From Luteimonas rhizosphaerae (lineage in GTDB: Bacteria > Pseudomonadota > Gammaproteobacteria > Xanthomonadales > Xanthomonadaceae), in assembly GCF_002849595.1 (NCBI RefSeq), contig NZ_NRQR01000008.1:1-64000 (forward strand): a stretch of 64,000 nt of DNA. Direction: 5' to 3'. Each line of letters opens with the position of its first letter. Within the stretch, counting starts at the first letter, position 1. The notes beneath the pieces were generated by a model, which made no database searches, was not told the origin of the DNA, and worked only from the letters and a program-made list of their open reading frames with translations. Below, piece by piece: positions 9,471 to 33,301 of this stretch. A program made the translations under genes and the position numbers.

Positions 9471-10682
<1,212 letters not shown>

Positions 10683-17630: not shown

Positions 17631-18581
17631 ATGGACATCGTCCTCGCCAATCCCCGTGGTTTCTGCGCCGGTGTCGACCGTGCGATCGAGATCGTCAAGC
17701 GCGCCCTCGAGCTGCTCGGTGCGCCGATCTACGTGCGTCACGAAGTCGTGCACAACCGCTTCGTCGTCGAGGACCTGAAGCGCCGCGGCGCGATCTTCGT
17801 CGAGGAACTCGATGAGGTGCCCGACGGCAATACGGTGATCTTCAGCGCGCACGGCGTGTCGCAGGCGGTCCGCGAGGAGGCCACGCGCCGCGGGCTCAAG
17901 GTGTTCGACGCCACGTGCCCGCTGGTGACCAAGGTCCATCTCGAGGTCGCGCGGCATTGCCGGTCCGGGCGCGATGTCGTGCTGATCGGCCATGCCGGCC
18001 ATCCCGAGGTCGAAGGCACGATGGGCCAGTGGCGCGCCGAAGCCGGGCTGGGCTCGATCTACCTGGTCGAGGACGAAGCCGACGTCGCGGCGCTGGTCGT
18101 CAGCCAGCCCGAGAACTTCGCCTACACCACGCAGACCACGCTGTCGGTCGACGACACGCGCAGCGTCATCGCGGCCCTGCGGGCGAAATTTCCCGCGATC
18201 CAGGGGCCGAAGAACGACGACATCTGCTACGCCACGCAGAACCGCCAGGACGCGGTGCGCGATCTCGCGCGCCAGTGCGACCTGATCCTGGTCGTCGGCT
18301 CGCCCAACAGCTCCAATTCCAATCGCTTGCGCGAACTGGCCGAGCGCGACGGGGTCGAGGCGTATCTGATCGACGGTGCAGCCGAGATCGACCCGCGCTG
18401 GGTCGAGGGCCGCCGCCACATCGGCGTGACCGCCGGCGCATCGGCGCCGGACGTGCTGATCCAGGGCGTGCTCGAACGCCTGCGCGAGCTCGGCGCGGCG
18501 GGGATGCGCGAACTCGACGGCGAACCCGAGAACATGGTCTTCGCGCTCCCCCGCGAGCTGCGGGTCCAACTTGTCGATTGA
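17631..18581 (+). CDS. ispH: 4-hydroxy-3-methylbut-2-enyl diphosphate reductase
   Basis: A 316-residue Fe-S enzyme for the last step of the MEP isoprenoid pathway. The cluster cysteines are C12 (RGFCAGV), C96 (DATCPLV) and C199 (DICYATQ), and the substrate-binding histidines H41, H74 and H124 are all present. The gene is intact, but its last 153 bp are duplicated at the far end of the genomic island. The stop codon overlaps the -35 box of the following tRNA promoter. Confidence 0.97.
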
Positions 18582-18606
18582 CCGCGCGCCGCGCGCTCCC
18601 TAGAAT
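18578..18606 (+). promoter_or_regulatory. tRNA-Thr promoter, now reading into the island
   Basis: TTGACC and TAGAAT are separated by 17 bp; the -35 box overlaps the ispH stop codon. With the tRNA cut at nucleotide 43, transcription from here enters the island toward the integrase gene. Confidence 0.7.
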
Positions 18607-18617
18607 TCGCGTCCCAG

Positions 18618-18660
18618 GCCGGAATAGCTCAGTTGGTAGAGCGGCGCATTCGTAATGCGT
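18618..18660 (+). pseudogene. Truncated tRNA-Thr(CGT), 5' half
   Basis: Nucleotides 1-43 of tRNA-Thr: acceptor 5' strand, D arm, anticodon stem and loop with CGT. The variable loop, T arm and acceptor 3' strand are missing; island sequence follows directly. The complete gene is at 33226-33301. Confidence 0.93.
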
Positions 18661-18825
18661 CCAGAGCATTTTCCCAGCGCGCGGTGTGTATCGCCCGGCG
18701 CTTTCCACCAAGGTGGATGTCTTTGATCTGCTTGGAAATTTGCACCGATACGGATAGCTCTCATCCAAACATGGTTCCGAACGGCTCGATAGCTTTTTTG
18801 GCTTATCGACTGCTTAGGAGCCACG

Positions 18826-20004
18826 ATGCGAATTGCCTTCAACAAGCGCACTGCGACCCAGTCGCAGCCGAAGAGCAAGCCTTATGAGATCCGGGACGCC
18901 GTCACTCAAGGGCTGATTCTTCGCATACAGCCCAGTGGTCACAAGGCGTGGATCGTTACCTGGGCGCACGGTAAGCGAAAGACATTGGGATCGGTCGACC
19001 ATCTGAGCTTAGACGACGCCAGGGCCCACGCTCGTCAGGCTCTCTCAGAGGCTACTCAGCAGCGGCTACCGGCCCTCGCTGCAAAGAAGGCACCGGCGTG
19101 CTCGCTTCGCGAGTTTTTGGACGACTACTACGCTCCCTGGGCATCCACCGAGCTGCGCCGAGGTGAGCGATATGTGCTTCGTATCAAAGGGCGCTTTGCA
19201 GGGATGCTGGAGATGCCTATCTCGGACCTTGATGCCAAGCTTCTCAATAGTTGGTGGATGGCTCGGCTCGCAAACGTGACCGGTACGAAGCCTGTAGAGC
19301 GGGTGACAGCTCATCGAGACTTCGCTGCGCTTCGAGCCGCACTCTCGAAGGCGGTTGATTGGAAGCTGTTGGAGACCAACCCGCTACTCGGGCTGCGCCA
19401 GAAGTCGGTGCAGGGGCGAGAGATCGTCAGGTTCCTATCAAGCGCAGAAGAGTCGAGACTCCGGGCAGCAATGGCATCGAGGGATGCTGGGGCTAAGCAA
19501 ACGGATGCGCGTCGCTCTTTCAAAGATCATTTGACGCCGATTGTCGTGCTCGCGATGAACACCGGAATGCGGCGCGGTGAGATCCTCTCGCTGGAATGGG
19601 CGGATATCGACTTCGACGGTCGAACGATCCGTGTGCAGGCGCGGAATGCTAAGAGCGGGAAGCAGCGTCACATACCGTTGAACAACGAAGCCATCGACGT
19701 CCTCCGGGCGTGGAAGACCGAGTCAGTCGGCTCTCCAGGCGTATTTGCTCCGTCTGACATAAAGAAAGGGTGGGGCGCGCTGCTGACTACTGCAGCCATC
19801 ACCAACTTTCGCTTCCACGACCTGCGGCACCACTTCGCAAGTCGTCTGGTGAGCTCGGGCGTGGATCTGAACGTGGTCCGAGAGCTTCTTGGTCACTCAG
19901 ACCTGAAGATGACCTTGCGTTACGCGCACCTGTGCCCCACGCGTCTCGCTTCTGCAGTCGCGACACTCGATGCGGTTAGAAGCGACGTGTCTGCGTCGGT
20001 CTGA
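18826..20004 (+). CDS. Tyrosine recombinase / island integrase
   Basis: A 392-residue phage-type integrase. The N terminus (YEIRDAVTQGLILRIQPSG, TLGSVDHLSLDDARAHA) matches the DUF4102 arm-binding domain found in tRNA-targeting islands. A SAM-like core-binding domain follows, then the catalytic domain: Arg in NTGMRRGEI (~249), HDLRHHFASR (~332-341), LGHSDLKMT and the nucleophile Tyr in LRYAHL (~367). All catalytic residues are present, so it should be active. The ATG at 18826 has TAGGAG upstream. It lies 165 bp from the broken tRNA, as expected for the enzyme that inserted the island. Confidence 0.95.
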   Translation: MRIAFNKRTATQSQPKSKPYEIRDAVTQGLILRIQPSGHKAWIVTWAHGKRKTLGSVDHLSLDDARAHARQALSEATQQRLPALAAKKAPACSLREFLDDYYAPWASTELRRGERYVLRIKGRFAGMLEMPISDLDAKLLNSWWMARLANVTGTKPVERVTAHRDFAALRAALSKAVDWKLLETNPLLGLRQKSVQGREIVRFLSSAEESRLRAAMASRDAGAKQTDARRSFKDHLTPIVVLAMNTGMRRGEILSLEWADIDFDGRTIRVQARNAKSGKQRHIPLNNEAIDVLRAWKTESVGSPGVFAPSDIKKGWGALLTTAAITNFRFHDLRHHFASRLVSSGVDLNVVRELLGHSDLKMTLRYAHLCPTRLASAVATLDAVRSDVSASV

Positions 20005-20085
20005 GACATGAAGTCCTAGATCCAGCGTCGGGGAGTCCATTCCAATAGATCGGGTCTGGAGGTCGTGACGAAGCAACTCCATACA

Positions 20086-20122
20086 TGCGCCGCGCACTGG
20101 TAAGTGCCAGATGCGCGGCGCA
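20086..20122. terminator. Long GC-rich hairpin between convergent integrase and hypothetical gene
   Basis: TGCGCCGCGCACTGG pairs with CCAG-A-TGCGCGGCGCA (one bulged A) around a short loop, giving a 15-bp stem. There is no clear T tract, but the position between convergent genes fits a transcription stop. Confidence 0.55.
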
Positions 20123-20134
20123 AGCAAAGCAGCA

Positions 20135-20488
20135 CTAGCCGACACTCATACGAAACAAGTCTTGGGCTTCTGTAAGTGCTTCCGCCTCACGGGCGTTCAG
20201 CCTCACTACGTCCATGTCGACACGAACATTCAGCGAATCGGACGACTCATCGTAGTGGGCAGAAGCACCTCGCTTCTCGAAGAAATCGACGCACTCGTCA
20301 ATGAAGCCAGTAGGCAGACGCTGGCGCCCGGTACTGTTCTTCAGGTCATCGACTTCGACTGAGTAGTGATAAATCGTGTTGCCGGAGTGTGCTGAGCGGC
20401 TAATCCCCGCCCTCACGAAGGCGCCCATCTGGCCATTCAAGAACTGGCGATCTTCATCACGCATGTGGGTGTCCGCGTATCGCTGCAA
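20135..20488 (-). CDS. Hypothetical protein
   Basis: A protein of up to 117 residues with mixed polarity and normal composition (GNTIYHYSVEVDDL, FIDECVDFFEKRGASAHYD, ALTEAQDLFRM). I recognise no family. The frame opens at a TTG; an ATG eight codons in (20464) is the more natural start, but neither has a clear ribosome binding site. It is convergent with the integrase and downstream of the XRE regulator on the same strand. It could be a small accessory or regulatory protein of the island. Confidence 0.5.
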   Translation of the reverse strand: MQRYADTHMRDEDRQFLNGQMGAFVRAGISRSAHSGNTIYHYSVEVDDLKNSTGRQRLPTGFIDECVDFFEKRGASAHYDESSDSLNVRVDMDVVRLNAREAEALTEAQDLFRMSVG

Positions 20489-20591
20489 GTCAGCAACGGG
20501 ATCATAAGGAGTTCATAAGAATCTTACAAGAGTCAAGCAGCGATCAAGCAAGCGCGGGATTCGCCGTGCCAATTCTTTCTCTGCGCAACCT

Positions 20592-20924
20592 TCAGGTTCG
20601 ATTCGGGTGTGCCCGATCCTCTGCGAGAAGCAGCAGTTCCGTCCGCTGTGCTTCGTCAAGTTGGCTATAAGCCAAGATCAGACGAGCCAGATCGTCGCTG
20701 TCAGCTACGAGGTAGGCGAGCGGGACATCTAGAGCCTCAGCAATCGCTGCAGCAGTGTCGATATCTGGACGCGACGTGAGCTGCTCATACCGATTGATGC
20801 GGGTAGAGCCAGTTGGTTTGCTCAAGCCCAAAAGCGCTCCCAGCGCGCGCTGAGATGTCCCACGCAGTTCACGGGTCGCTTTGAGTCGCGCCGCGAACAT
20901 CGCACTGGCTGTGGGCTTAGGCAA
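20592..20924 (-). CDS. XRE-family transcriptional regulator
   Basis: A 110-residue protein with an N-terminal Cro/CI helix-turn-helix (FAARLKATRELRGTSQRALG, ALLGLSKPTGSTRINRYEQ) and a short C-terminal region including VPLAYLVADSDDLARLIL. The frame opens with TTG; an ATG at residue 9 (20900) is an alternative. It diverges from a membrane zinc-ribbon gene, and a perfect palindrome lies in the shared intergenic region, so it probably represses itself and that neighbour. Confidence 0.85.
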   Translation of the reverse strand: MPKPTASAMFAARLKATRELRGTSQRALGALLGLSKPTGSTRINRYEQLTSRPDIDTAAAIAEALDVPLAYLVADSDDLARLILAYSQLDEAQRTELLLLAEDRAHPNRT

Positions 20925-20982
20925 AGGAGTCTACGATCGAAGCTCGACCCCAATGTTGGCCCTTGGCACCTGTTCATGGCAG

Positions 20983-21001
20983 ATCTACAGTAGATGTAGA
21001 T
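20983..21001. promoter_or_regulatory. Candidate operator of the XRE regulator
   Basis: ATCTACA-GTAGA-TGTAGAT is a perfect inverted repeat with 7-bp arms and a 5-bp spacer, located between the divergent XRE and zinc-ribbon genes. The size fits a dimeric Cro/CI-type site. Binding is inferred. Confidence 0.6.
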
Positions 21002-21042
21002 AGCAGGCTTGCATGGTTGCAAGTCATCCTCAAGGGGGCGGT

Positions 21043-21510
21043 ATGAAAGGCTTCGGTCAACTATTGATAGGCGCGGGACTCGTATGGGTCGTTTTCGCGC
21101 TTCAGCTCGACACGAGCGTTCCAGTGCCTGGTATGGGGCGAGTGCAGAACTTCTCGCTGATGGAGCAACGTCAGACGCAGTTGATGCTTTCGGGCGGCAC
21201 GGTTCTCGTCGGGGTCCTGCTGTTCGGCTTCGGTGCAGTCCGAGAGCGGTACGAGGAGGAAGGCGACGAACGCGTCTGCCCACATTGCGCAGAGCCGATT
21301 CGTTGGGAGGCTAGGTTGTGCAAGCACTGCGGGAAAGGCGTTCCAAATCCTGTAGACGAGGAGACCGGTTTCGACCTAGATGACCTAGCGCCCGAAGCTT
21401 TTGAGGAGCCAATCGATGAGCACGAGGCGGGACGCAGGTACACCTATCGCGAGCTAAGGGAAGCCGCTGAAGAGGGCGAGCGCGCATATGAGCAGGCCGA
21501 GAAACCGTAG
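21043..21510 (+). CDS. Membrane protein with zinc ribbon
   Basis: A 155-residue protein with two N-terminal membrane segments (GFGQLLIGAGLVWVVFAL and MLSGGTVLVGVLLFGFGA) followed by a cytoplasmic zinc ribbon (CPHCAEPI..ARLCKHCGK) and an acidic tail with AAEEGERAYEQAEKP. The ATG at 21043 is chosen because AAGGGGG lies just upstream; an ATG ten codons earlier lacks one. Divergent from the XRE gene and sharing its palindrome. Function unknown. Confidence 0.75.
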   Translation: MKGFGQLLIGAGLVWVVFALQLDTSVPVPGMGRVQNFSLMEQRQTQLMLSGGTVLVGVLLFGFGAVRERYEEEGDERVCPHCAEPIRWEARLCKHCGKGVPNPVDEETGFDLDDLAPEAFEEPIDEHEAGRRYTYRELREAAEEGERAYEQAEKP

Positions 21511-21597
21511 TTAGGGCTTTGGTCCCCTCCGACCCCGTAGCAAAAGCCGGGTACGATGAGTGTCTACCCACTCGCCCGGTCTAAGGGGACTGAAGAT

Positions 21598-23154
21598 ATG
21601 GCTACTAGTGTCAATCTGGACGCTCTGATACCGCGCGAAGATTTTGAGGCGGCTTCGCCCAATGACGATGCATCTAGGCCCCCCGGGATAACAATTCGTG
21701 ACTTAGAGGCTGGGGCTTTCTTTTATCAGGCATTGCGAAAGCCTGATTTTCAGCGTGAATCGTCAGAATGGGACCCGGCCCGCGTCACTGGCCTTATTAA
21801 AACTTTCATCCAAGGTGACTTGATCCCCGCCGTCATTCTTTGGAAACACAGAGAGTATCTTTTTGTTATAGATGGCGCTCACCGGCTTAGCGCGCTAATT
21901 GCGTGGGTACTGGATGACTATGGGGATGGTGAAGTTTCCCAAAAGTATTACGGTCATTCTGTTTCTCAGGACCAGAAGGCACAGGCTGACAAAGTCCGGC
22001 GACTCGTGAATAAAGAGGTGGGCTCCTATGCAGACTTGCAGAAAGCAAACGCAAGTCCTGAACTATTTGGGCCCGATATGATTGGTCGTGCAAGAGCGCT
22101 GGCGAGCAGAACTCTTACACTTCAGTGGGTAGTGGGTAGCTTCACGGTCGCCGAGGATTCATTCATCAGAATTAATCAGCAAGCCGCAAACATAACTCCG
22201 CAAGAGCTTCAGCTGATTCGAGGAAGAAAACGCCCTGACGTTATTGCAGCCAGAGCAATCATGCGGCGCGGAAGTGGTCATCTGAGTTCCTCACGTTTCT
22301 CTGATGAAAATCTTAAGCAAATCAAGGAAATTTCACAGGCGGTTTTTAATCTGCTGTTTGAGCCAGAAATGACATACCCGGTTAAGTCTCTAAATCTTCC
22401 CGTCGGAGGGGGCGCTTACTCTGGAACCGCTTTGAAGATGGTCCACGACTTTATTGTCTTGAGTGTGGGCCAAATCAAGGATGAGGCCGACGATGTAGGT
22501 GCTCGTACTATTGAGATTTTGAAGAGGACGCGTAGGTCGGCCGAGCTGATTTGTAGCAACGTGGCCGGATCAATGGGACTGCATCCTGCTATTTATTTCT
22601 ATAGCTGGACTGGTAAGCAGCAGCCCATCCTTTTTCTTACGGTCGCTGACATGATCTTAGAGCACGAGCGGAACAAAACGCTCTCGCTATTCTTAAATCG
22701 GCGCAAGGCTTTCGAAGATTTTATAATAGGTAATAGAGCACTTCTTAACCAGATTGTTCGTAAATTTGGAACTAAAGACTCTGGAAAGAATCATTTGAAA
22801 GCTTTCTATCAGGAGGTTTTCAAGGCTATTGATGCAGGCGTGACTGGCGATGCCATTTCTGAGCAAGTCATTCGCCACAAAGCATTTACATACTTGCAAC
22901 CTTCCGAAAGCCCTTACTCCGGCGTCTCGGCCGGACGCTACGACGCCGCAGTCAAGTCTGGGTTGGTAATTGGCGAGCTCATCCCAGGCGCCCTTCGCTG
23001 TGGCATCTGTGGGGGGCTGGTGCCTTCTCAAGCGATTTCAATTGATCACAGACAGGAAATTTCCGCAGGTGGCGACTCAAAGATATCTAATCTCCAAGTT
23101 GCTCATCCGCGCTGCAACAACGAGAAGACGCCGCCGTTGAGCTCAATTTTCTGA
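21598..23154 (+). CDS. ParB/DUF262-like domain fused to HNH endonuclease
   Basis: A 518-residue protein. Residues ~35-110 resemble DUF262/ParB-like NTPase-nuclease domains: DFQRESSEWDPARVTGLI, GDLIPAVILW and the DGxHR signature in VIDGAHRLSAL, with a later FIRINQQAANITPQEL typical of DUF262. The C terminus has an HNH motif with zinc cysteines (CGICGGL, ISIDHRQEISAGGDSKISNL, HPRCNNEKTP). DUF262 plus an HNH-type nuclease is the design of GmrSD and SspE restriction factors, so a single-gene anti-phage nuclease is likely. AAGGGG lies upstream of the ATG at 21598. Markedly AT-rich compared with the chromosome, a sign of transfer. Confidence 0.72.
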   Translation: MATSVNLDALIPREDFEAASPNDDASRPPGITIRDLEAGAFFYQALRKPDFQRESSEWDPARVTGLIKTFIQGDLIPAVILWKHREYLFVIDGAHRLSALIAWVLDDYGDGEVSQKYYGHSVSQDQKAQADKVRRLVNKEVGSYADLQKANASPELFGPDMIGRARALASRTLTLQWVVGSFTVAEDSFIRINQQAANITPQELQLIRGRKRPDVIAARAIMRRGSGHLSSSRFSDENLKQIKEISQAVFNLLFEPEMTYPVKSLNLPVGGGAYSGTALKMVHDFIVLSVGQIKDEADDVGARTIEILKRTRRSAELICSNVAGSMGLHPAIYFYSWTGKQQPILFLTVADMILEHERNKTLSLFLNRRKAFEDFIIGNRALLNQIVRKFGTKDSGKNHLKAFYQEVFKAIDAGVTGDAISEQVIRHKAFTYLQPSESPYSGVSAGRYDAAVKSGLVIGELIPGALRCGICGGLVPSQAISIDHRQEISAGGDSKISNLQVAHPRCNNEKTPPLSSIF

Positions 23155-23251
23155 CTTAAGCCATCGGCATCATGACTCGCTTCCATTATAGGCAAGTTGC
23201 GCCAGCGCTCATCGGTAGCGAGTTGAGCCGCAGCTTGCGCGCGTGACTTGA

Positions 23252-23446
23252 GCTCAAGCTGCCGCTGCCATCGCCGACGAACCCGAGCCCGATGTGGCCG
23301 CCGCTGGCCACGGCCGGACCATCATCAACATCAGGCCCGAGCACCTCGATGCTTGGCTCAACCCAGACCCAAACGATCTTGCCGCGCTCTACGCGATCTT
23401 CGACGATAAACGGCACCCCTGCTACGAGTACCGGGAAGCGGCCTAA
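23252..23446 (+). pseudogene. Remnant of an SOS response-associated peptidase (SRAP/YedK) gene, 3' end
   Basis: Sixty-four codons after an in-frame TGA encode AAAIADEPEPDVAAAG, then RTIINIRPEHLDAWLNPDP and NDLAALYAIFDDK to a TAA. This resembles the C-terminal tail of SRAP/HMCES-family proteins, which crosslink to abasic sites. No start or catalytic N-terminal Cys (MCGR) is found upstream, so only the tail survives. The assignment is from memory of the family pattern. Confidence 0.5.
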
Positions 23447-23667
23447 TGCTAGGGAACCGCAACTCAAACGCATGACCTTGGCCCCCCAAGTGCGATGCAG
23501 TCTTCTCGGGAGTTGCGATGAGTAGGCAGCGGCTCAGGCTCGCGAGAGCGCAAAAAGCGTTGTGTTATGAGCCGATTCGAGCAGCTATCATCTAAGTATG
23601 AAGCGGTACCGGGAGGTCCTCGACATAGACGGCGCGAACTCTACGCAGTTCCTAAGCGGCGCCTAGG

Positions 23668-24111
23668 TTACGGTTTAGTCAGCTCAGGCCACTTGTGCGA
23701 GTCAAGGGCTTTAGTAAGCATCATAAGCCGGTGCCGGAACGCGTCATCACCCTTCCCAGCAACGGCAAAAAGCGTGGCACTTAAGCCTTCGCAGTCGTCT
23801 ACAGCCTCTGCGAGCGCGGTCAAGCCAGCTTCCGTGATCCTGATTCGAGTGTATCGATGGTCAAAAGTGTCCTGTCTGGACTCGCGTTGGATCAGTCCAT
23901 CCTTTTCCAGCCCCTTCACCACCGTTGACACTGTAGAGGATGACGCTCTCAAGACCTTCGCCAAGTCTCTTGGTAGGGCGTTATCGCGAGTTTGGAGATG
24001 GGCGAGGACAAGATAGCGACGAACGTCACGCGTGCTGCGCTTGAGCCGCTTTCGAAGGTGTTGGTCGAATGCGCAACATAGCGCGATTAGCTCAGCTAGT
24101 TCGTCGGTCAT
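23668..24111 (-). CDS. MarR-family transcriptional regulator
   Basis: A 147-residue winged-helix regulator: a helical dimerisation start (ALCCAFDQHLRKRLKRST), DNA-binding part (LVLAHLQTRDNALPRDLAK, SSSTVSTVVKGLEKDGLIQR) and wing (DHRYTRIRITEAG). It diverges from the 344-residue unknown gene, and a perfect 12-bp inverted repeat sits in between, so it is probably autoregulated and controls that neighbour. Confidence 0.85.
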   Translation of the reverse strand: MTDELAELIALCCAFDQHLRKRLKRSTRDVRRYLVLAHLQTRDNALPRDLAKVLRASSSTVSTVVKGLEKDGLIQRESRQDTFDHRYTRIRITEAGLTALAEAVDDCEGLSATLFAVAGKGDDAFRHRLMMLTKALDSHKWPELTKP

Positions 24112-24130
24112 GCGGGCATTCTAGCGATTG

Positions 24131-24174
24131 ATTTCATGGGACCTATCTCGGCGTCGAGGTACGTCCCATGAAAT
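24131..24174. promoter_or_regulatory. Perfect 12-bp inverted repeat, candidate MarR operator
   Basis: ATTTCATGGGAC and GTCCCATGAAAT are exact inverses separated by 20 bp. They lie 19 bp from the MarR start and about 50 bp from the divergent gene, a fitting position for a shared operator. The arms could also form an RNA hairpin in the leader of the rightward gene. Confidence 0.6.
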
Positions 24175-24225
24175 GCCTCGGTATGGTCCTGAAGGGCACT
24201 TGCGCCCTTATAGGAGGAACCAGCC

Positions 24226-25260
24226 ATGCAGAAGACGCCCAAGAAGAAGTCAGGGACTCTGGTCATAGCCGCTCGCGCCAGAGCAGGGGACTTGGCAGCC
24301 CTACGACGGATCGGCGATCCCGATGCCCGGCTCCGGGGAGAGAGCCGCTTCCAGCGGCAGTACATCCAGCGTGAGCTGCTTGCAAAGGAGCCCTTGTTGC
24401 AGCAGTCGACTTGGATTGAGTATGGCTACTTGACCCCTATGGAGCGCACTGAGTTGTTCGCTGAAGAGTTTCGAGAAGCCAGCCTTCATGCGTACGCCAA
24501 GTACGTTGATCTTGGCGTCCGATTGAACAGGGAGCCGCTGGAGGCCAGTTTCGGAAAGAACTCGGTGGCCGAGATGAACTCACTATGGAAGGCCAGGCAG
24601 AAGGCAGACGAGCTGGGAGTTCCCTACGACCTATTCGTTGAGACTCTGCTGGAGGGGAAAATGACTGGCGACAAGTGGAAGCGGCCGCCGAGGCCAAACC
24701 AGTTGCTCTCTGGCAAACACACCGAAGCTAGACTGCGTGGCCGGCCCACTTGGAAAGAGGTCAGCGATCGCCTATTTCTGCCTCATTGGGACCGGCGGTT
24801 TTTCGCGCCGAGAGCGGTCGACGACCCGGTGCAGGCGGCGGCGATGCAGGCATTACGCAATGACGTGTTGCGGGCATCTGATCGACCACAGCGACTTGCC
24901 AGGTACTTGGGTCTCCCCGGCTTGTTGTCGCTTAAATGCGCCCGTACTTTGTTTACATCCGACATAGTAGAGGAGTCGTTAGCGCTGGGGCCCTTCGTGG
25001 AAGCTGACGAGTCGACCGAGGGCCACGAGTACCGTCCTGCCTGCTTCGGAAACAGGAGCGTAACGCGAGGGTCGCCCTGTTGTAACTGTGTAGTTGCGAC
25101 TGCGTGTGCCAGCTTCAGGCGCAAAGTCACCCAAATGCTTGTAGAGGCAACCGGTAGCAGTGACCCTCGACTGGCGCATAGAAGGAGAGTGGACCGTGAG
25201 CGGCAACGAAAGCATCGCCACAGGAAGCGCCGGCAGCGCACGGTGGCTGCGAGTCCATAG
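24226..25260 (+). CDS. Unknown protein with C-terminal cysteine cluster and basic tail
   Basis: A 344-residue protein that I do not recognise. The N terminus is basic (MQKTPKKKSGTL). The middle is helical and charged (WIEYGYLTPMERTELFAEEF). Near the C terminus PACFGNR and SPCCNCVVATACASF give a C-x10-C/CxxC-x5-C cluster that may bind zinc or an Fe-S centre. The tail is strongly basic (RERQRKHRHRKRRQR), suggesting nucleic-acid binding. GGAGGA lies at a good distance before the ATG. It sits opposite a MarR gene behind a perfect palindrome, so it is likely the regulated partner. Confidence 0.7.
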   Translation: MQKTPKKKSGTLVIAARARAGDLAALRRIGDPDARLRGESRFQRQYIQRELLAKEPLLQQSTWIEYGYLTPMERTELFAEEFREASLHAYAKYVDLGVRLNREPLEASFGKNSVAEMNSLWKARQKADELGVPYDLFVETLLEGKMTGDKWKRPPRPNQLLSGKHTEARLRGRPTWKEVSDRLFLPHWDRRFFAPRAVDDPVQAAAMQALRNDVLRASDRPQRLARYLGLPGLLSLKCARTLFTSDIVEESLALGPFVEADESTEGHEYRPACFGNRSVTRGSPCCNCVVATACASFRRKVTQMLVEATGSSDPRLAHRRRVDRERQRKHRHRKRRQRTVAASP

Positions 25261-25380
25261 GTCTGGAGCAGAGGTGTCACGACTCCCTTTAAAGCTAAGA
25301 ACAAAATCTTTAAGAGCTTTACTGCTATATGGATTGCCGGATTTTATTTGCAGGATGCAGGTAGGTTTGAGGTGAATTAA

Positions 25381-25553
25381 GGTGGGCCTTCGGTGTCTCG
25401 GGCCTACGGCCCTCCCCCCCGACGGTCCACCTGCGCGCCTTCGGCGCGAAAAAGCTTTCCCCGGCAGTTGAACTTAAGCTGCTTAAGAACGCTGATCTCG
25501 CTCGGCCTTCGGCCTCCCTTGACCAGCGTTGTGGACGCCGCTTCGCGTCGTCC
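25381..25553. ncRNA. Array of five hairpins, candidate structured RNA or DNA element
   Basis: The gene-free stretch holds five consecutive foldable units: 25381-25431 (GGTGGGCC with GGTCCACC, enclosing GGGCC-TAC-GGCCC); 25434-25448 (CGCGCC-TTC-GGCGCG); 25473-25487 (CTTAAG-CTG-CTTAAG); 25488-25530 (AACGCTG with CAGCGTT enclosing GGCC-TTC-GGCC); 25533-25553 (GGACG-C-CGC-TTC-GCG-T-CGTCC). Three share a TTC triloop. It lies between the unknown gene at 24226 and the broken HNH gene. Function and strand are unknown; no coding frame in it is convincing. Confidence 0.5.
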
Positions 25554-25708
25554 AGCATATTTTTCCCACAACTTCGTTCTAAACAGCAGCGGAGAAGGCG
25601 AAGCCCTTTTGGAGGGACAGGCCATTCCGGTCTCCAAGTCATAGCAAGTTAGAGTCAGGGCTAGAACAGCGGTATCTTCCTCTGTCGCCTCACTACAAGG
25701 ATGTATCC

Positions 25709-26633
25709 ATGGCAAATCAAGAGGGCTCTAAGTGGAGCAGCCTTGAGCTTGCAGCAGCAGTTGCGGCGTACAGGAAGATGGAAGAGCTTGCAGCAAACGG
25801 TGAGCCCTTCAAAAAAACCGGTTTTTACAAGGCTTTGGAAGCTCGCTTTGGAAGGGAGGCTGGCGCTTTCGAGCGACGAATGCAGAACATTTCCGCAGTG
25901 CTGGAAAGCATGGGTGAGCCGTGGCTCAAGGGCCTAGCGCCAGCCCGGAACGTAGGGCCGTCGGCTGACGGTCAATTGCGCAAGATCCTGAGGCCAGGCG
26001 GGCTTCCTCCGTATCACGCCAAGCTGCCGGCAATGCGTGCCTGGCTCATTGAAGTTGCACGTTCAGCCGAATCTCCGCGCAGGCTTGGGGGCACTTGGTC
26101 ACGAGTCGAGGCAGCGGGGAGAGCCGATCTTGACCGCGCTCGTTGTGAGCAAGGGCACTGGGAAATGCTCTGCAGGCTTAGAGCGAGAGTTCGGGATATC
26201 GGATGACGAAGCCGAGCGCCAGAAGCTGTACCGCTTCTGGAAGGATGTAGAGGCTGACCGACACTCGCAGCCCGACACCGAGCCTGCTGACGCAACATTG
26301 GAGGAGCGCGCGAGCAAGTTCGCACGCCAGGCTGTGAGGCCCCAGCAGCAGGCATTTCGTAAGAGCGTCTACATCGATTTCAATGAGGCATGCGCGATCA
26401 GCGGGTGCAGCATACGAAGCACGCTGGACGCCGCGCATCTCACGGGTCGCAGTTGGCGCAAGGGGCACAACAAGGCGAGCGACGGTTTGCTACTCCGCAA
26501 AGACCTGCACGCGCTGTACGACGCGGGCCTGCTAGGCGTCGACAAGGTAGGGCGTGTGACGATTTCAGACAGCGCGCGGGATCACTACGATAGCTACCAC
26601 GGAGTGACGCTTGCTAAGCGTCGAAGTAAGTAG
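25709..26633 (+). pseudogene. HNH endonuclease gene broken by a +1 frameshift
   Basis: The first frame (MANQEGSKWSSLELAAAVAA to about VARSAESPRRLG) has the N-terminal domain common to HNH restriction-type endonucleases (YRKMEELAANG, ERRMQNISAVLESMGEPW). The second frame continues with ALGHESRQRGEPILTALVV, KCSAGLEREFG and an HNH-like end (CAISGCSIRSTLDAAHL, DGLLLRKDLHALYDAGL, HGVTLAKRRSK). The frames meet at the run of five G at 26087-26091. Removing one G joins them into 924 nt, a 307-residue protein, with natural sequence across the joint. AAGGA precedes the ATG. It may be a true inactivation or a base-calling error. Confidence 0.82.
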
Positions 26634-26863
26634 CGTGCGGCAGGCCCAGAGGCTGGCTGAATGCGTGTTTGGGCGCTGTCTGAGGGGGTGGGAGCTAGCC
26701 CTGTAGCGCTCGATAGCTGATGCGTCCCAAATCGCTTCCTAGCGCGTCTGAGGCGTAAGACTTGACCGGCTTACGAGGCACTTACCGCGCAAAGAGGGGC
26801 AAACGCATGCGCTTGTAAGCGATTGATCTGAAAGGGACTGATGTAAGCGTGCGTCATCTAGAT
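26634..26863. other. Intergenic region upstream of the PD-(D/E)XK-like gene
   Basis: No gene is supported. The region contains several short near-repeats of CTTAC/GTAAG and leads into the palindrome at 26864. It probably carries the promoter of the downstream nuclease gene, but I could not pick a clear -35/-10. Confidence 0.4.
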
Positions 26864-26884
26864 CGTGGCATCAGATATGCCACG
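26864..26884. promoter_or_regulatory. Palindrome CGTGGCAT-N5-ATGCCACG, copy 1
   Basis: Perfect 8-bp arms with spacer CAGAT, 80 bp before the start of the PD-(D/E)XK-like gene. The same arms recur at 29747-29767 upstream of the DUF2971 gene. Dimeric-protein operator is the likely role. Confidence 0.65.
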
Positions 26885-26964
26885 CTCGTCGACAGGGCTT
26901 TGGGAAGGCCTAGCGAGTCTGTGGCACTAGCGCCGTGCAAAGGACAAAATCTAAGGGGGAAGGG

Positions 26965-28398
26965 ATGCGCGTTTCAACGCACTACAAGCTGAAGAGAAAG
27001 CAGGCGGAATTGGATTTCGTGGATGTTCCTCTTGATACAGACCTTCCCGTCTTTGTCGAGCCTACGGCGATACGCGCTTTAGAAACGCCTTGGTCGAGCC
27101 ATTGCGTGGCCTTGCTGCAAAGCTTCTTTAAGACTGTGCTGGACGCCGTAAAGCGAGGCGACAAAGCGATGGCTGTTGCTCTGCTTTCGTCCCTTAATGA
27201 GCGAAATGACTTCCACTTGGGTTACTCGTCCGGTCGTTCGCGTGGACATGCATTTGGTGCGGGCTCCGCTGGATCAGTTTGGAACTCACTGCTCACAAGT
27301 AAGGCCGCCAAGTCGGGTGTTCTTTCTGATCTCGAAGACACCTCTCTCCTAATCGAGGGCGTGGGAGCCGACATGATCTCGGATGCTGTGTGCAACATAA
27401 TTCGAGGGCCGCTCATCCAATACACTCAGGATATGTGCCGCTACTACGGTATTCCCATGGTTTCTGGCGTAGCATCGGGACCATGCTGGGATGCCCATTC
27501 CAAGAATTGGGTCGCCACCCACGTCGAGCTGCCATTGCCCAAAGGAGAAGTTCTGTTGCTCGTTCCCAAGTCTATAGTGCGTTTGGCAGGCGCATACGAC
27601 CCGGGTAAGTATTATCGACACTACCTTTTACCAGAGCTTCAGAAGCAGCATTTAGCAAGTGGTTCGAGCCTGGTAGAGGTTCTAAAAAGCAAGAAGAGAC
27701 GCGTTACCAAGAAGGCGCTTACTAATTACTATGGCGCGGGAAAGGACGCGATCGCCAGTTTGACCGAGTCGAATCCCGATGTGCTCGAAAAATACAAAAT
27801 TGACAAAGAGCAGGATCCTACTCCGCCCATTAGCAACAGCTATCTAGCAAGCCTCGAGAACTCCACAAACCCTTCACTATCTGATCTTTTAGAGAAGGTG
27901 CTGGAAGTTCCAGCAGGGAAGCCCGGAGCGACCCAGTACGAGCGGGCGATGGAAGGCCTACTTAGTGCCCTTTTCTATCCATCATTGATTCATCCGGTGA
28001 GCCAGTCCGGTATCAATAATCGACGGAAGATCATCGACATAAGATATAGCAATGCAGCCAAGGAAGGATTCTTCGCATGGCTATCTAAGCACTATCCATC
28101 GCCATATGTGTTCGTTGAGTGCAAAAACTATACTGAAGACGTGAAAAATCCAGAACTCGATCAGTTGTCAGGCAGGTTTTCGCCCTCAAGAGGTCAGTTT
28201 GGGATACTAATCTGTAGGTCTGTCAGCGACCGGAGTAAGATCAATTTGATGTGTCGGGACACCGCGAAGGATGGGCGCGGTTACATGATTGTCTTAGACG
28301 ACGCTGACCTTAAAGCGCTAGTGGCGGCGGGTCCGGCAATGCATCACGACGCGACGAGAACGATCCTAAATGACAGGTTCGATGCGCTTGTGAACTAG
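26965..28398 (+). CDS. PD-(D/E)XK-like nuclease, putative defence protein
   Basis: A 477-residue protein. The C-terminal third carries a restriction-like core: Asp in RRKIIDIRYSN, then E-x-K in YVFVECKNYTED, followed by LDQLSGRFSPSRGQFGILIC, which matches the Mrr-like PD-(D/E)XK fold. The N-terminal two thirds (TDLPVFVEPTAIRAL, NDFHLGYSSGRSRGHAFGAG, LLIEGVGADMISDAVCN) are conserved-looking but unknown to me. The ATG at 26965 has GGGGGAAGGG directly upstream; the GTG ten codons earlier is less likely. Two small membrane-protein genes follow on the same strand and may form a unit with it. Confidence 0.7.
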   Translation: MRVSTHYKLKRKQAELDFVDVPLDTDLPVFVEPTAIRALETPWSSHCVALLQSFFKTVLDAVKRGDKAMAVALLSSLNERNDFHLGYSSGRSRGHAFGAGSAGSVWNSLLTSKAAKSGVLSDLEDTSLLIEGVGADMISDAVCNIIRGPLIQYTQDMCRYYGIPMVSGVASGPCWDAHSKNWVATHVELPLPKGEVLLLVPKSIVRLAGAYDPGKYYRHYLLPELQKQHLASGSSLVEVLKSKKRRVTKKALTNYYGAGKDAIASLTESNPDVLEKYKIDKEQDPTPPISNSYLASLENSTNPSLSDLLEKVLEVPAGKPGATQYERAMEGLLSALFYPSLIHPVSQSGINNRRKIIDIRYSNAAKEGFFAWLSKHYPSPYVFVECKNYTEDVKNPELDQLSGRFSPSRGQFGILICRSVSDRSKINLMCRDTAKDGRGYMIVLDDADLKALVAAGPAMHHDATRTILNDRFDALVN

Positions 28399-28460
28399 CA
28401 GGCTGATCTACGCACGATGTTCTTCATAAATTCATCTAAGCTTTTCCTCGGTGATTAAAT

Positions 28461-28988
28461 ATGTATACAGCTTTTGAGCTTGCCAACATTTTGTTCGGGA
28501 TGATCGGGGTGTCGGTGCTATCGATGATCGGCTTGCTTTTTGCGCGATTTTCGCGGGAAAGTCGGGCTCAATCTTTCTGGGCGAGGAGGATGGAAACAGC
28601 CAGGGCACTGGCGCTACCCTTGGACCAGCGGCAAGCCTTGCGGGTGGCGCTTATGTCCGATGAAATGCCAGTCGCAAGAAGGGATGAAGTTCAGCACTTG
28701 CAACTAGTGGCAAATGGGTTGGAGGTTGCTGAGCACATAGCACTTGGAATAAATAACGGGGTCTATGAGCGAGACTTGGCTATAAAGTTATACGGTTCAA
28801 TCTTAGTCCGCGTGTTTTTCGCGAACCTAGAGCGGGTCTACGCTAGCCGGGAGGCGGAAAGCGACTTGAATAAACTCTACGAATCAATTTCGTTCTACGA
28901 GCTCGAGAGATTTGTCAGGTCTCTTGATAAGGAGGAGTCCGGTGAGCTTGGCGCTGGATTCCCGGCGGTGGGGGCGCGAAATGACTAA
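28461..28988 (+). CDS. DUF4760-like membrane protein
   Basis: A 175-residue protein with one N-terminal membrane segment (ANILFGMIGVSVLSMIGLLF) and a helical cytoplasmic part (VANGLEVAEHIALGINNGVY, ILVRVFFANLERVYASREA) that resembles DUF4760 proteins. Function unknown. Its last 8 nt overlap the next gene, indicating coupled translation. Confidence 0.65.
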   Translation: MYTAFELANILFGMIGVSVLSMIGLLFARFSRESRAQSFWARRMETARALALPLDQRQALRVALMSDEMPVARRDEVQHLQLVANGLEVAEHIALGINNGVYERDLAIKLYGSILVRVFFANLERVYASREAESDLNKLYESISFYELERFVRSLDKEESGELGAGFPAVGARND

Positions 28989-29451
28989 TCCTAGAAATGC
29001 ATTCAAGGCCTACGAAGAGCACGCCCAGAAGCAAGGATTAAGTCCGGTTGCTATGCATTTGTCATATGCGTTTCACGAAGAGCAATTGCGTGAAATTATC
29101 GACAGGGAGCTAGCAAAGGGCGTGCAGTTTGATCAGGTCGACGTTGCGGGTCATGACAGCACTCTCACGTCTAGGCTCAATATCGAGAACAATTTTCGGC
29201 GAGCGAAGGAACTCATCGATAAGGAGATGTCCAGTTTTGTCACCGCTGCGACGAAAAAGGGTGGACTTAAGGGTTTCGCTTTAGCGGTTCTTAGTAGTGT
29301 TGTCGCTGCATTTTTATATTCCATAGTTGTTTTTATAATCGTTATCACCTCTCAGGACCAAGTGAGGCAGTTCCTCGCGGGAGTGGACGGTGCATCAGTT
29401 CAAAGCGGGCAGAGCGAGCGCGCGAGGATTGAGGAGCAACCTAGTGAGTAG
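28981..29451 (+). CDS. Small membrane-anchored protein, coupled to the DUF4760-like gene
   Basis: A 156-residue protein with a soluble, charged N-terminal part (FKAYEEHAQKQG, FRRAKELIDKEMSSF) and one C-terminal membrane segment (LAVLSSVVAAFLYSIVVFII) followed by a short polar tail. No family recognised. The ATG at 28981 overlaps the end of the upstream gene in another frame, so the pair probably acts together at the membrane, perhaps as the effector or sensor side of a defence unit. Confidence 0.65.
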   Translation: MTNPRNAFKAYEEHAQKQGLSPVAMHLSYAFHEEQLREIIDRELAKGVQFDQVDVAGHDSTLTSRLNIENNFRRAKELIDKEMSSFVTAATKKGGLKGFALAVLSSVVAAFLYSIVVFIIVITSQDQVRQFLAGVDGASVQSGQSERARIEEQPSE

Positions 29452-29746
29452 CCATCTGCTAATCGAGTCGAGGTGCTTTCATGCTGAGCTCTTGCCGCCA
29501 GTCTCCTAGCGCTTGACCCTATGAGTGCTTTCGCGACGCTTGCTGGAGAGCTAGGACCAAGTATCCAAAGTTCAAAGCGGATAAGAAGCTTTCCGTGGAC
29601 CGGGTGCGCGAATGAGTTCCGCTCAAGCGCTTGCTTGACTTAAGCTTCGCGTGACTTACAGCGCACTTATTCAAGCCATAGGGTCTTTGCTGCCGCGTTT
29701 AACTTACTGATTCTTGGGCAAGTACTGCGAGCTAGGGCTCAGAGGG
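29452..29746. other. Intergenic region upstream of the DUF2971 gene
   Basis: No convincing gene. Stop codons are frequent in all frames. It separates the membrane-protein pair from the DUF2971 gene and leads into the second copy of the GTGGCAT palindrome. Confidence 0.45.
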
Positions 29747-29767
29747 CGTGGCATCATGTATGCCACG
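29747..29767. promoter_or_regulatory. Palindrome CGTGGCAT-N5-ATGCCACG, copy 2
   Basis: Arms identical to those at 26864-26884, spacer CATGT, 148 bp before the DUF2971 gene. The repeated architecture in front of two different cargo genes points to a common regulator. Confidence 0.65.
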
Positions 29768-29914
29768 ATCAATGCTCGATGCGGTCGCGTGGAATCTGCA
29801 TCTTCATTGGATGGAGCCGCGTACAGGTTGCCCCGAGGTGAGAAGCGGAACCGATCGACGTAGAGCGGACCAGCGCCTGCATGCAGCGTGAGCAGTGGAT
29901 AAGGAAAACTGTAG

Positions 29915-30772
29915 ATGTTGATTGAGCGTGAATACCGAGCTACTCAAGATGAACTGCTGTACCACTATTGTTCTCCGGAAACCTTTCTGGCGATATGTAG
30001 CAGCAAGACATTGCGATTATCAGATATTTTTTCAATGAATGATTTTCTGGAAATGCATTGGGGATATGCAAGGTGGGCGCATGTTGCAACGAAGAGAGCC
30101 GAGAACTCTGAGGCGAAGCTTGTCGAGTCAATTGATCACGTTGTGTCATCTTCGACGTTTAATGTCCTCCCCCTAGCGGCGTGCTTTTCTTTGGGAGGTG
30201 ACATGTTAAGCCAGTGGCGCGCCTATGCTCAAAATGGATTGGGTTTTTCGCTTGGTTTCAAGGCAGATTCGCTTTGTCAGATGGCAGCTAGGCCATTGCG
30301 GGTGCTTTATGACCAGGAGAAACAAGAGCGAGAGATTGAAGATTTTATTGCGACGATGGAGAAGGTGGCCGAGGCTGAAGGTCACGAAAGTGACGACTTC
30401 TTTGAATTTTGCACTTGCTTTGCTTGCGACTTGGCTGCATTGAAAAATCCGTCGTTCTCTGAAGAGCAGGAAGTGCGCCTAATTCACTTGGTTAATTTTG
30501 TTAGAAGTAACGATTCGATTAAGATTCAGAGCTATGGGGGGACATCGTTTGGACACGAAGCTCCGCCCCTCCCAATTGGATTCAGCATGAGGGGTTCGGT
30601 TCCAGTGCCCCACATCGATATGAGTTTCTTAGATTCTGAAGGGAATCATCCTCTTGCTCGCGTGATTCTAGGGCCGAAAAACGAGGCGTTGGCCTCCGCA
30701 ATATCAGTATTCTTAGAAACTGTTGGTTTAGGCGGTGTCGAGGTGCTGAAGTCGCAGTCGTCTTATAGGTAA
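29915..30772 (+). CDS. DUF2971 protein
   Basis: A 285-residue protein matching DUF2971: YHYCSPETFLAICSSKTLRL, then FSMNDFLEM, and CFSLGGDMLSQWRAYAQNG, which corresponds to the conserved S..xDxxxxWxxYxxxxxG signature. Proteins of this family are often found in accessory and defence-rich regions; their biochemical activity is not settled. AT-rich and unlike the flanking chromosome. The second GTGGCAT palindrome lies upstream. Confidence 0.8.
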   Translation: MLIEREYRATQDELLYHYCSPETFLAICSSKTLRLSDIFSMNDFLEMHWGYARWAHVATKRAENSEAKLVESIDHVVSSSTFNVLPLAACFSLGGDMLSQWRAYAQNGLGFSLGFKADSLCQMAARPLRVLYDQEKQEREIEDFIATMEKVAEAEGHESDDFFEFCTCFACDLAALKNPSFSEEQEVRLIHLVNFVRSNDSIKIQSYGGTSFGHEAPPLPIGFSMRGSVPVPHIDMSFLDSEGNHPLARVILGPKNEALASAISVFLETVGLGGVEVLKSQSSYR

Positions 30773-30840
30773 TCTCCTGCAAGGGCCCTGCGAGGTGATG
30801 CATATTATTCAAATTACTAAAGCAATCAATAGTAGCTGCA

Positions 30841-31524
30841 ATGGCCGAGATTAAAGATTGGCAGATTCAGTCAGCTTGGTGGGCCTCCGGCATCTTCGCT
30901 ACTGGGGCAGTCTGGTATTTTCTATCGAGAGGTGATTTCTTCGCTGCGGGTGTGGGTGCGGCGGCGGCGCTATGCCTCGCGGCGGTCGCGATCGTTCTTC
31001 ACGTTTGGAAGGATCGTCAGGCTGCATCTACATTAGCCGGCTTGAGCGACGATACCTCCGAGTCTTATGTCCAACGCTACAGGGATGAGCCTAGTCACAT
31101 CCGCTTCATTAGGCATCTTCCTCGAGCGAGAAGAGTGGCCAAGGGAGAGGCTCAAGAGGGATGGGATACGGGCGTGACACTTGATATGCGCGAAGCCAGC
31201 TACACGTACATCGAGTTTCTCAAGTCGGTCTGGCTTAGGTTGGCAGAGTTCTACCCCGCTAATCATTTTGAGGGCGGCAGTCCTAGTCAATACATCTCTG
31301 ACCAAATCCAGCGGCAATACAGGTACCACAGCGCTCGGCATGAGCCAGATGGCAGTGGAACCGGCGGGACGATTGTTGGTGTCTTGACAGCTGGCGATGT
31401 CGCTGACGATCTAGAGCAGATGATTGAGGAAGCTGTGGAGAGCGTGTTTGGATATGACGAAAATTTTGATACGGGTGGATGGCTCGCGGACTGGCGCAAC
31501 GACTCGCTAGAAGAGGGCTCCTGA
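30841..31524 (+). CDS. Small two-helix membrane protein
   Basis: A 227-residue protein with two N-terminal membrane segments (AWWASGIFATGAVWYFL and AAALCLAAVAIVLHVW) and a soluble C-terminal part (YVQRYRDEPSHIRFIRHLPR, WLRLAEFYPANHFEGG, acidic end). No family recognised. It follows the DUF2971 gene and its last 18 nt overlap the end of the convergent KAP NTPase gene. Association with that NTPase is possible. Confidence 0.65.
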   Translation: MAEIKDWQIQSAWWASGIFATGAVWYFLSRGDFFAAGVGAAAALCLAAVAIVLHVWKDRQAASTLAGLSDDTSESYVQRYRDEPSHIRFIRHLPRARRVAKGEAQEGWDTGVTLDMREASYTYIEFLKSVWLRLAEFYPANHFEGGSPSQYISDQIQRQYRYHSARHEPDGSGTGGTIVGVLTAGDVADDLEQMIEEAVESVFGYDENFDTGGWLADWRNDSLEEGS

Positions 31525-32892
31525 AGCCCTCGCTAAATGAGTGACGATAGTTGACACGCGCGAGCGCCTAGTGAAGGACTGCTCCCAAAGCAATTCCGAG
31601 AAAAGCGCAGCTCCTTGTTCTCGATCTTCCTCTCGGAGGACATCGTGAGCGTTACTTTCCCAACATGCCAGAATGAACGAGATCATTTTCAACACGGGCA
31701 CGTCGTCCTCGGTATAGGTCGAGATCGACTTCTGTAGGAAGCCCTTCACACCCGCTTCGTCAATTGGTGCCCGGTACTGGTCTCTAACCAAGAAGCGTCC
31801 AACCAAGATAAATGTGAGCAGTGGTACGCTTAGCGGCGTTGTTTGCTCCGAGGACCATAGGAACTTGAGCCGAATAACCACTTGCTGCCAGTCCCGCATC
31901 GTCAAAGCTTCAGAGTGCTGCTCCAGTAGGCTCTTGAAGAACTCACGCCCTCTTCTCTCGATCGGTGCCTGAGCCGTCTGACTAACTCCGAGCTGCTCGA
32001 AGATTGCTTCTCTCACAAGGTCAGTGGGGGCTGGAGGCAGTGGAAGTCGAACGTCAATAAGTCTGCGGAAGTAGCTATCAGCGTCCAGCTCCGGGCTATA
32101 GGCCGCTCTTGCGGACTGAGCGAGCACGTTCCAGTCGTAGGACAGAATGAAAACGATCCCTGGGGTCTCAAAGTAGTGCTTCATACGCTCGATGAGCGAG
32201 ATGGTGTAGTCCGGCCTGCAACGGTCTAAATCATCAACGATGACGATGACTCTTGGCGAGCGGTCGCGATCCTTACCTTTTGCCGTGCGAACCAGTTCTG
32301 CCAGGCTTCTATGAAAGGCGTCGCCCTCGTCATCGATGTCGATCTCTTCTTTAACTGCATGCTCTGCTACAGCGCCCGCGACTTCTCCTAAGGTCGACGC
32401 AGCTATCGCATCTCCGCCGGACGCAACTACGGCTGCTGTCGTGATGCCCTTTGCCGCAGGACTGAACGTGATGCGAGCTGCCGAAGAGATGCGTTTATAC
32501 AGAGCCGCAGCGCTCTCCAGAAGCCGTTCTCGCGCTTCTTCATACGCCGGCACGTCTTCGCGTTCGAGCGCATCCTTCAGAAGGTCGGTCGCTTGGACTA
32601 CAGCTTTGGTGAAGCTGATCAGAGGGTCGCGTTTAGCCTCAGCTTTCCAAGCGTCCAGGACGACCACGGCCCAGTCGGGGGCGCTATGCCGAAGATCCTT
32701 CTCAAACATTTCGAGGAAGTAGCTTTTCCCCGTTCCCCACTGACCTTCCAGGCCGATTACCCATGAGTCGCTCTCGGCGCTCGCTATCGCAGAGCGAAGC
32801 AGTGCGGCGAAGTCTTTTCTACTGAGTTGATCGGCGGCGAATGGATCATCCGACGTGATCGCGCGATTGGTGGGGCGGTACAGAGTCGCCAT
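31507..32892 (-). CDS. KAP-family P-loop NTPase
   Basis: A 461-residue NTPase of the KAP group. Walker A is GQWGTGKS (residues ~50-57) and Walker B is VIVIVDDLDRC; a hydrophobic insert (AAKGITTAAVVASGGDAIAA) lies between them, where KAP proteins usually carry membrane helices. YTISLIERMKHYFETPGIVF and FILSYDWNVLAQS are typical downstream motifs. KAP NTPases act at membranes and are part of several defence systems. The ATG at 32892 opens MATLYRPTNRAITSDDPF; an upstream start 15 codons earlier is possible. Convergent with the small membrane protein. Confidence 0.85.
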   Translation of the reverse strand: MATLYRPTNRAITSDDPFAADQLSRKDFAALLRSAIASAESDSWVIGLEGQWGTGKSYFLEMFEKDLRHSAPDWAVVVLDAWKAEAKRDPLISFTKAVVQATDLLKDALEREDVPAYEEARERLLESAAALYKRISSAARITFSPAAKGITTAAVVASGGDAIAASTLGEVAGAVAEHAVKEEIDIDDEGDAFHRSLAELVRTAKGKDRDRSPRVIVIVDDLDRCRPDYTISLIERMKHYFETPGIVFILSYDWNVLAQSARAAYSPELDADSYFRRLIDVRLPLPPAPTDLVREAIFEQLGVSQTAQAPIERRGREFFKSLLEQHSEALTMRDWQQVVIRLKFLWSSEQTTPLSVPLLTFILVGRFLVRDQYRAPIDEAGVKGFLQKSISTYTEDDVPVLKMISFILACWESNAHDVLREEDREQGAALFSELLWEQSFTRRSRVSTIVTHLARASGALF

Positions 32893-33036
32893 CGGCTGTC
32901 CAGCATCCAGGTGGTCCTCGTTGCACATTACAAGCACTGAGAGCTACTGAGCAGAGGCAGGCTGAGCCGAGAGGAGTGTCATGATCAGGCCTATGACTTG
33001 ATTTAAGAGGCTCGGCTTATCAGGCACTTACGCTTC

Positions 33037-33189
33037 ACCGCCGGCGCATCGGCGCCGGACGTGCTGATCCAGGGCGTGCTCGAACGCCTGCGCGAGCTCG
33101 GCGCGGCGGGGATGCGCGAACTCGACGGCGAACCCGAGAACATGGTCTTCGCGCTGCCCCGCGAGCTGCGGGTCCAACTTGTCGATTGA
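33037..33189 (+). pseudogene. 3' fragment of ispH
   Basis: The last 51 codons of ispH including the TGA, with one C-to-G change at 33156 relative to the intact gene. There is no start or upstream part; it is a passenger of the island boundary. Confidence 0.93.
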
Positions 33190-33214
33190 CCGCGCGCCGC
33201 GCGCTCCCTAGAAT
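33186..33214 (+). promoter_or_regulatory. Promoter of the intact tRNA-Thr
   Basis: TTGACC and TAGAAT are 17 bp apart and end 11 bp before the tRNA. The -35 box overlaps the stop codon of the ispH fragment, which explains why a functional copy needs the ispH end. Confidence 0.8.
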
Positions 33215-33225
33215 TCGCGTCCCAG

Positions 33226-33301
33226 GCCGGAATAGCTCAGTTGGTAGAGCGGCGCATTCGTAATGCGTAGGTCGTAGGTTCGATTCCTATTTCCGGCACC
33301 A
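33226..33301 (+). tRNA. tRNA-Thr(CGT)
   Basis: A 76-nt tRNA with encoded CCA. The acceptor pairs GCCGGAA/TTCCGGC, the D arm is GCTC/GAGC, the anticodon stem GCGCA/TGCGT encloses TTCGTAA with anticodon CGT, and the T arm is GTAGG/CCTAT. Nucleotides 1-43 belong to the island-borne repeat and the rest is the chromosomal 3' half. Confidence 0.97.

Follow-up and report, generated by a model that had tools for sequence, protein, structure and literature searches.

SaPIs are satellite islands that carry their own initiator and an iteron-type origin. The same combination is found in the PLE satellites (PMC7145576), and in the island SGI1 the origin, oriV, directly follows rep and contains iterons and AT-rich regions (PMC7433901). 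At the origin of phage G4, three stem-loops support priming by primase with SSB alone (PMC6783573), and in the promoters of phage N4 a C-G closing pair and a loop with a 5' G and a 3' A are required for supercoil-driven extrusion (PMC4496689). Here, we describe a hairpin array from an integrative island of Luteimonas rhizosphaerae, located within a 64,000-nucleotide stretch of DNA (NZ_NRQR01000008.1, positions 1 to 64,000) that was analysed as a whole and is hereafter called the window. The array is a conserved element and not a local curiosity. It probably acts in cis at the DNA level and is linked to an uncharacterised protein of the island. On the best functional reading it would belong to the origin at which a family of integrative islands replicates, a reading to which we assign a probability of roughly 40%.

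Like oriV of SGI1, the locus is non-coding, sits in an integrative island just past a gene for a (here putative) initiator, and combines short repeats with AT-rich DNA. The repeats of SGI1 are four 17-bp iterons, accompanied by a DnaA box and a known Rep (PMC7433901), whereas the locus described here has 8-mer repeats, often in inverted pairs, no enrichment of DnaA boxes and an uncharacterised protein; hairpins are not mentioned in the text of the SGI1 oriV paper (PMC7433901). Like the array, the G4 origin comprises several adjacent stem-loops that can serve on single-stranded DNA (PMC6783573). Its phage sequence is fixed, however, and is primed by DnaG together with SSB, while the stems here vary and covary, and priming is a proposal. 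The early promoters of the N4 virion RNA polymerase (vRNAP) are likewise short hairpins whose template strand carries a C(GNA)G triloop (PMC4496689). Each, however, has a single hairpin with a partly conserved stem and starts transcription at a fixed site, in contrast to an array with compound stems and varying sequence in an island in which no N4-type polymerase was seen. Compared with SaPI and PLE, the 344-aa protein encoded upstream of the array has no family or fold match to initiators, and the status of the island as a satellite is putative. The features of the locus are collected in Table 1.

Table 1. Positions of the hairpin array, its neighbouring elements and the surrounding island in the window.
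Feature	Position	Strand	Remarks
Genomic island with the module	18661-33268	.	~14.6 kb, between direct repeats
Integrase, Arm-DNA-bind_3/phage-type	18826-20004		Near left end of island; Pfam
MarR-family regulator	23668-24111	-	Pfam MarR, E 1.5e-9; divergent neighbour of gene 24226-25260
Gene for 344-aa protein	24226-25260	+	Candidate partner or initiator; directly upstream of array
TGTCACGA, window copy of TGTMACGM site	25275-25282	+	
AT-rich trough	25287-25346	.	Candidate unwinding element; 30% GC in 60 bp versus 55% in neighbourhood
Hairpin array	25380-25553		Five foldable units
Hairpin A, compound stem	25380-25432	+	Fold, covariation, covariance model R1 (75.5 bits)
Hairpin B, CGCGCC-TTC-GGCGCG	25434-25448	+	Fold, covariation, R1; minus-strand loop GAA
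Palindrome repeat CTTAAG-CTG-CTTAAG	25473-25487	.	Sequence
Hairpin C	25488-25530	+	Outer 7-bp AACGCTG/CAGCGTT around inner GGCC-TTC-GGCC
Hairpin D, GGACG.CGC-TTC-GCG.CGTCC	25533-25553	+	Folds, R1
HNH cargo ORF, split in two frames	25709-26633		PDC-S36 and HNH models

The island lies between direct repeats (18451-18660 and 33059-33268) of at least 210 bp with one mismatch, which end in the anticodon region of a tRNA-Thr. The repeat, which exceeds the usual length of an att core, takes in the terminal portion of an ispH-like gene together with the 5' part of the tRNA-Thr. The integrase of the island matches Phage_integrase with an arm-binding domain, and the neighbours of the array include a GmrSD/HNH protein, the MarR regulator and the gene for the 344-aa protein ahead of it, and cargo after it. 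MarR-like genes of one cluster (c3) occupy the same place in 9 other islands, the MarR gene of the window standing outside that cluster. Of the 20 loci compared, 17 had an integrase relative within the compared stretch and 9 carried an HTH regulator belonging to a single cluster; the cargo varies. Islands of this family carry candidate antiviral genes. In the window, the cargo includes a PDC-M36A-like protein and an HNH gene that the sequence-only reading had described as broken and lying 155 bp past the array; the ORF is indeed split in two frames, with a gap of 156 bp. An intact 328-aa relative of this ORF occurs in locus L133, 1149 bp past the gene. A search of the literature on phrog_2500, the phage protein family to which the 344-aa protein is related, and on islands of this kind found no paper on the module.

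All five foldable units previously proposed for the array are present in the sequence, as are the three TTC triloops (hairpins B, C and D). The compound stem of hairpin A has an outer helix of 9 bp (AGGTGGGCC/GGTCCACCT, including one G.U), a middle helix of 4 bp (TCGG/CCGA) and an inner helix of 5 bp (GGGCC-TAC-GGCCC) whose loop of TAC reads GTA on the minus strand. Folded as RNA, the plus strand of 25370-25570 reaches -86.3 kcal/mol (z -4.48, with 0 of 200 shuffles as good), in agreement with the earlier claim that the density of hairpins exceeds chance; the minus strand (z -2.48) is weaker than the plus strand yet beats nearly all shuffles. Under DNA parameters, the strands come out much alike (z -3.49 for plus and -3.92 for minus). 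Beyond the window, 400 kb of this genome contained no further cluster of the array's loop type, defined as at least three C(TNC)G/C(GNA)G hairpins within 300 bp. The only other C(TNC)G triloop cluster found in 464 kb lies within the window at ~15154-15317, in the coding sequence of ileS, and is probably a chance product of coding repeats such as GCCTACGGC. The five units had been read as a single array, but as the covariance model described below gives a second match in the window (25486-25549, 20.4 bits, E 0.42) and in L133 (26 bits, E 0.03), the scores suggest a tandem pair of a compound and a simple hairpin with the second pair degenerate. Hairpin C is likely a degenerate second copy of A, and D likely a second copy of B. 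Units like hairpin C, with a stem enclosing a hairpin, also occur in L025, L026 and L132-L134, and the CTTAAG-CTG-CTTAAG palindrome has no conserved counterpart in the other loci whose sequences were compared.

The sequence-only reading had proposed covariation at homologous loci as the check on its claim, and both covariation and conservation of the array in related islands were found. Diverged islands carry the same architecture past the gene in a different sequence, with a shared order of outer stem, internal loop, short helix, UC-GGGCC-UUC-GGCCC-UC and then a GC hairpin with a UUC loop. Alignment by MAFFT with RNAalifold missed the outer stem because the internal loops vary in length, so the pair counts come from rows cut by hand (A6, A8), in which internal loops and one bulged base are omitted and the L026 row of A6 has filler in columns outside the count. 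Compensatory changes were present in 11 of 15 hand-aligned pairs. The covariation score on the hand-cut rows, several of which come from related loci, was 0.669 versus 0.182 for shuffled rows and at most 0.162 for slid ones, the other row set being much alike. As a check on the hand-cut rows, a natural-sequence alignment (A7) of the uncut core sequences made with MAFFT gave 0.170 versus 0.081, which is weaker but above all shuffles.

A covariance model (R1) built from nine sequences detects the module in every member used for building, and also at 40 bits in L137, which is absent from the model and whose protein has ~28% identity to the query. In searches of whole genomes (E <1e-3), 12 of the 17 gene-bearing genomes have exactly one copy, beside the gene and with none elsewhere; four (G336, G447, G645 and G400) have no match, and in G563 the sole match is weak and away from the gene. 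With one copy in its own genome, the array was rejected as a REP/BIME repeat. Across 101 relatives, R1 gave only weak matches aside from the window's own. A search for DNA similarity in relatives returned only fragments of a few dozen bases.

The earlier proposal left open whether the array is a structured RNA or a DNA site, and the DNA half is better supported. The main rival of the origin reading is a structured non-coding RNA, or a 5' leader of the cargo operon, transcribed from the array, bound by the island protein and acting as a regulator or an antitermination-type element, which we consider rather unlikely. The strong plus-strand fold, the covariation of the stems, the conserved basic tail on the 344-aa protein and the cargo that often follows in the same direction would all fit such an RNA. 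Fold z-scores across ten loci (L137 not included), however, are about equal for both strands, with no preference for plus. When G.U pairs were disallowed in folding, the 1x1 mismatches comprised 5 G.U on the plus strand against 14 A.C (G.U on the minus strand), a count that includes spurious helices and so shows no more than that the mismatches do not favour a plus-strand RNA. The segment 25100-25800 has no sigma-70-like promoter and no site with a GC stem and an immediate T run, which agrees with the earlier exclusion of a simple terminator, and no relevant Rfam family matched the array at gathering or relaxed thresholds. The retron- or guide-like RNA suggested in the sequence-only reading is without support, as a Pfam scan revealed no reverse transcriptase in ten neighbouring ORFs, including both sides of the array, and no guided nuclease among the island proteins scanned. 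In an NCBIfam search with the HNH domain of 21556-23154, IscB was listed far below the cut-off. Protein coding was discounted in the same reading, and no ORF across the segment falls in a family common to other loci.

Finally, of 32 triloops on stems of at least 5 bp, 24 are C(TNC)G, which is C(GNA)G on the minus strand, compared with a genome background of 2.5%; the gene strand itself has no C(GNA)G loop among them. This C(TNC)G rule is kept even where a UNCG tetraloop could not form (hairpin D of the window, hairpin A of L026 and the 5' hairpins of L025, L133 and L134), which speaks against an RNA. Strand-symmetric folding, few G.U pairs and C(GNA)G loops on the minus strand thus favour a DNA element over a plus-strand RNA, and the loop bias is the most telling of the three observations; an RNA from the minus strand may be compatible with them. 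If the array does act as an RNA, it would represent a strongly covarying non-coding RNA that Rfam lacks.

The same loops raise the possibility that the hairpins are promoters on extruded or single-stranded DNA for the polymerase of an infecting phage, similar to the N4 virion RNA polymerase, such that infection would turn on the island and its defence cargo. The C(GNA)G loop on the template strand for plus transcription, in 24 of the 32 triloops, fits the N4 extrusion rule, and GCTGC-TCC-GCAGC in the early region of a S. maltophilia Schitovirus has CTGC-TNC-GCAG in common with hairpins of L133 and L134. However, the TAC and TGC loops of the window, L025, L137 and L058 place a pyrimidine in the middle of the minus-strand loop, where N4 vRNAP recognises a purine, and the distance past the hairpins varies. 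As the same phage stretch holds more C(GNA)G hairpins, the likeness may be chance, and we regard this explanation as very unlikely. The phage sequence in question is that of Stenotrophomonas phage Pokken (L172, at about 95 and 1656), where GCTGC-TCC-GCAGC and GGCTGC-TCC-GCAGCC resemble N4-type vRNAP promoters; the hairpins of L133 and L134 that share CTGC-TNC-GCAG with this early region lie upstream of the array.

The origin reading depends further on the gene beside the array, in the loci compared an initiator-like gene of an integrative island with the array just 3' of it, its initiator role being putative. The N-terminal half of the 344-aa protein matches phrog_2500 (E 1e-17; motif ARQ.AD..G.PY...P.PNQ), a phage family without assigned function that occurs in many phages and phage-plasmids. 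The C-terminus carries a four-cysteine cluster (CX11CX2CX5C), a possible Fe-S or Zn site, and a basic tail. Full-length homologs with both C-terminal features occur in islands of Xanthomonadaceae, in one genome from another family of the same order and in some alphaproteobacteria. The protein had no match in Pfam, NCBIfam or PADLOC, and no helicase or primase domain was seen in it. The AlphaFold model is confident (pLDDT 89.8), all-helical and had no match in the PDB or among BFVD viral models, nor in a second look by VIA-align, which is no proof of a new fold. Relatives of phrog_2500 in phages and phage-plasmids lie near genes for DnaB-type helicases and, in two of three cases inspected, also near PhoH; no convincing hairpin clusters were found near the phage genes. 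A partial second phrog_2500-type gene sits just upstream of the main gene in L133, L134, L132, L138 and L024, and none was seen in the window.

Between this gene and the hairpins, recurrent elements were found that count for a DNA element alongside the array. In 12 of 16 loci, those of alphaproteobacteria among them, TGTCACGC sites (TGTMACGM) lie between gene and array, within ~260 bp past the stop codon or, in L133, shortly ahead of it; in several loci they form inverted pairs 15-80 bp apart. Some loci have several TGTMACGM sites, but the window, with a single one, and the L022 group, with none, show no evident true iterons. A deep AT trough past the stop codon, which in the window begins in a recurrent CCCTTAAAAGCTA-like box, was found in 17 of 17 loci and ranks within the lowest 0.4% of 60-bp windows in its 11-kb neighbourhood in all but the Ruegeria locus (1.5%), although a promoter region could also explain the AT-richness. 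The elements thus follow in the order gene, sites, AT trough and hairpins. DnaA boxes were not enriched (3 found versus 1.9 expected). Some phage and satellite origins do without a DnaA box.

From this arrangement, we infer how an origin of this type might operate. The phrog_2500/four-cysteine protein, or a partner, would bind the TGTCACGC sites just past its own gene, and the adjacent AT-rich segment would melt. The GC-rich segment, once single-stranded or extruded by supercoiling, could then fold in the cell into hairpins whose minus-strand C(GNA)G triloops would be unusually stable, and these might keep SSB off and position a primase or helicase for replication, in the manner of the three stem-loops of the phage G4 origin. 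An origin here would be the replication module of an apparently unnamed, defence-carrying island family of Xanthomonadaceae, including opportunistic Stenotrophomonas, and would provide a first functional handle on phrog_2500 as well as a naturally occurring collection of C(GNA)G DNA hairpins that covary. An improbable extension combines this scheme with phage sensing, such that a self-extruding C(GNA)G hairpin array would be recognised in its structured form by the phrog_2500/four-cysteine protein or by a phage polymerase, and infection would start both island replication and defence expression.

Two other functions of mobile DNA, like the phage-polymerase promoter, are less likely than an origin or a structured RNA. 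An oriT, or another transfer or recombination site serving conjugative mobilisation or cargo exchange, would suit a mobile island with an integrase and hairpins at the border of conserved core and variable cargo, but is quite improbable: most S. maltophilia-group islands share a block that starts at the integrase and extends ~1.4 kb beyond the gene, and they diverge into cargo there and not at the hairpins; the window and S. maltophilia regions have no similarity to plasmids (72,556 records), and Pfam revealed no relaxase among the scanned island proteins of the window. Least probable is a cos- or pac-like packaging site of a phage satellite. The island is small, has an integrase and carries defence cargo along with a phage-related gene, but no similarity to 50,697 phage records was found, and no capsid, terminase or satellite hallmark gene was noticed in the island gene lists. 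An integron attC site was also set aside, as the multi-hairpin layout appears unlike the one long hairpin of attC.

Two further observations concern the DNA past the gene. A GTTCTAGATATAAAG-like motif, possibly a cargo promoter, occurs 340-580 bp past the gene in L133, L134, L132, L026, L029 and L137. In L024, the non-coding-looking DNA that extends from the hairpins to the cargo (~9700-10640) is ~90-95% identical among most S. maltophilia-group islands and holds strongly conserved blocks.
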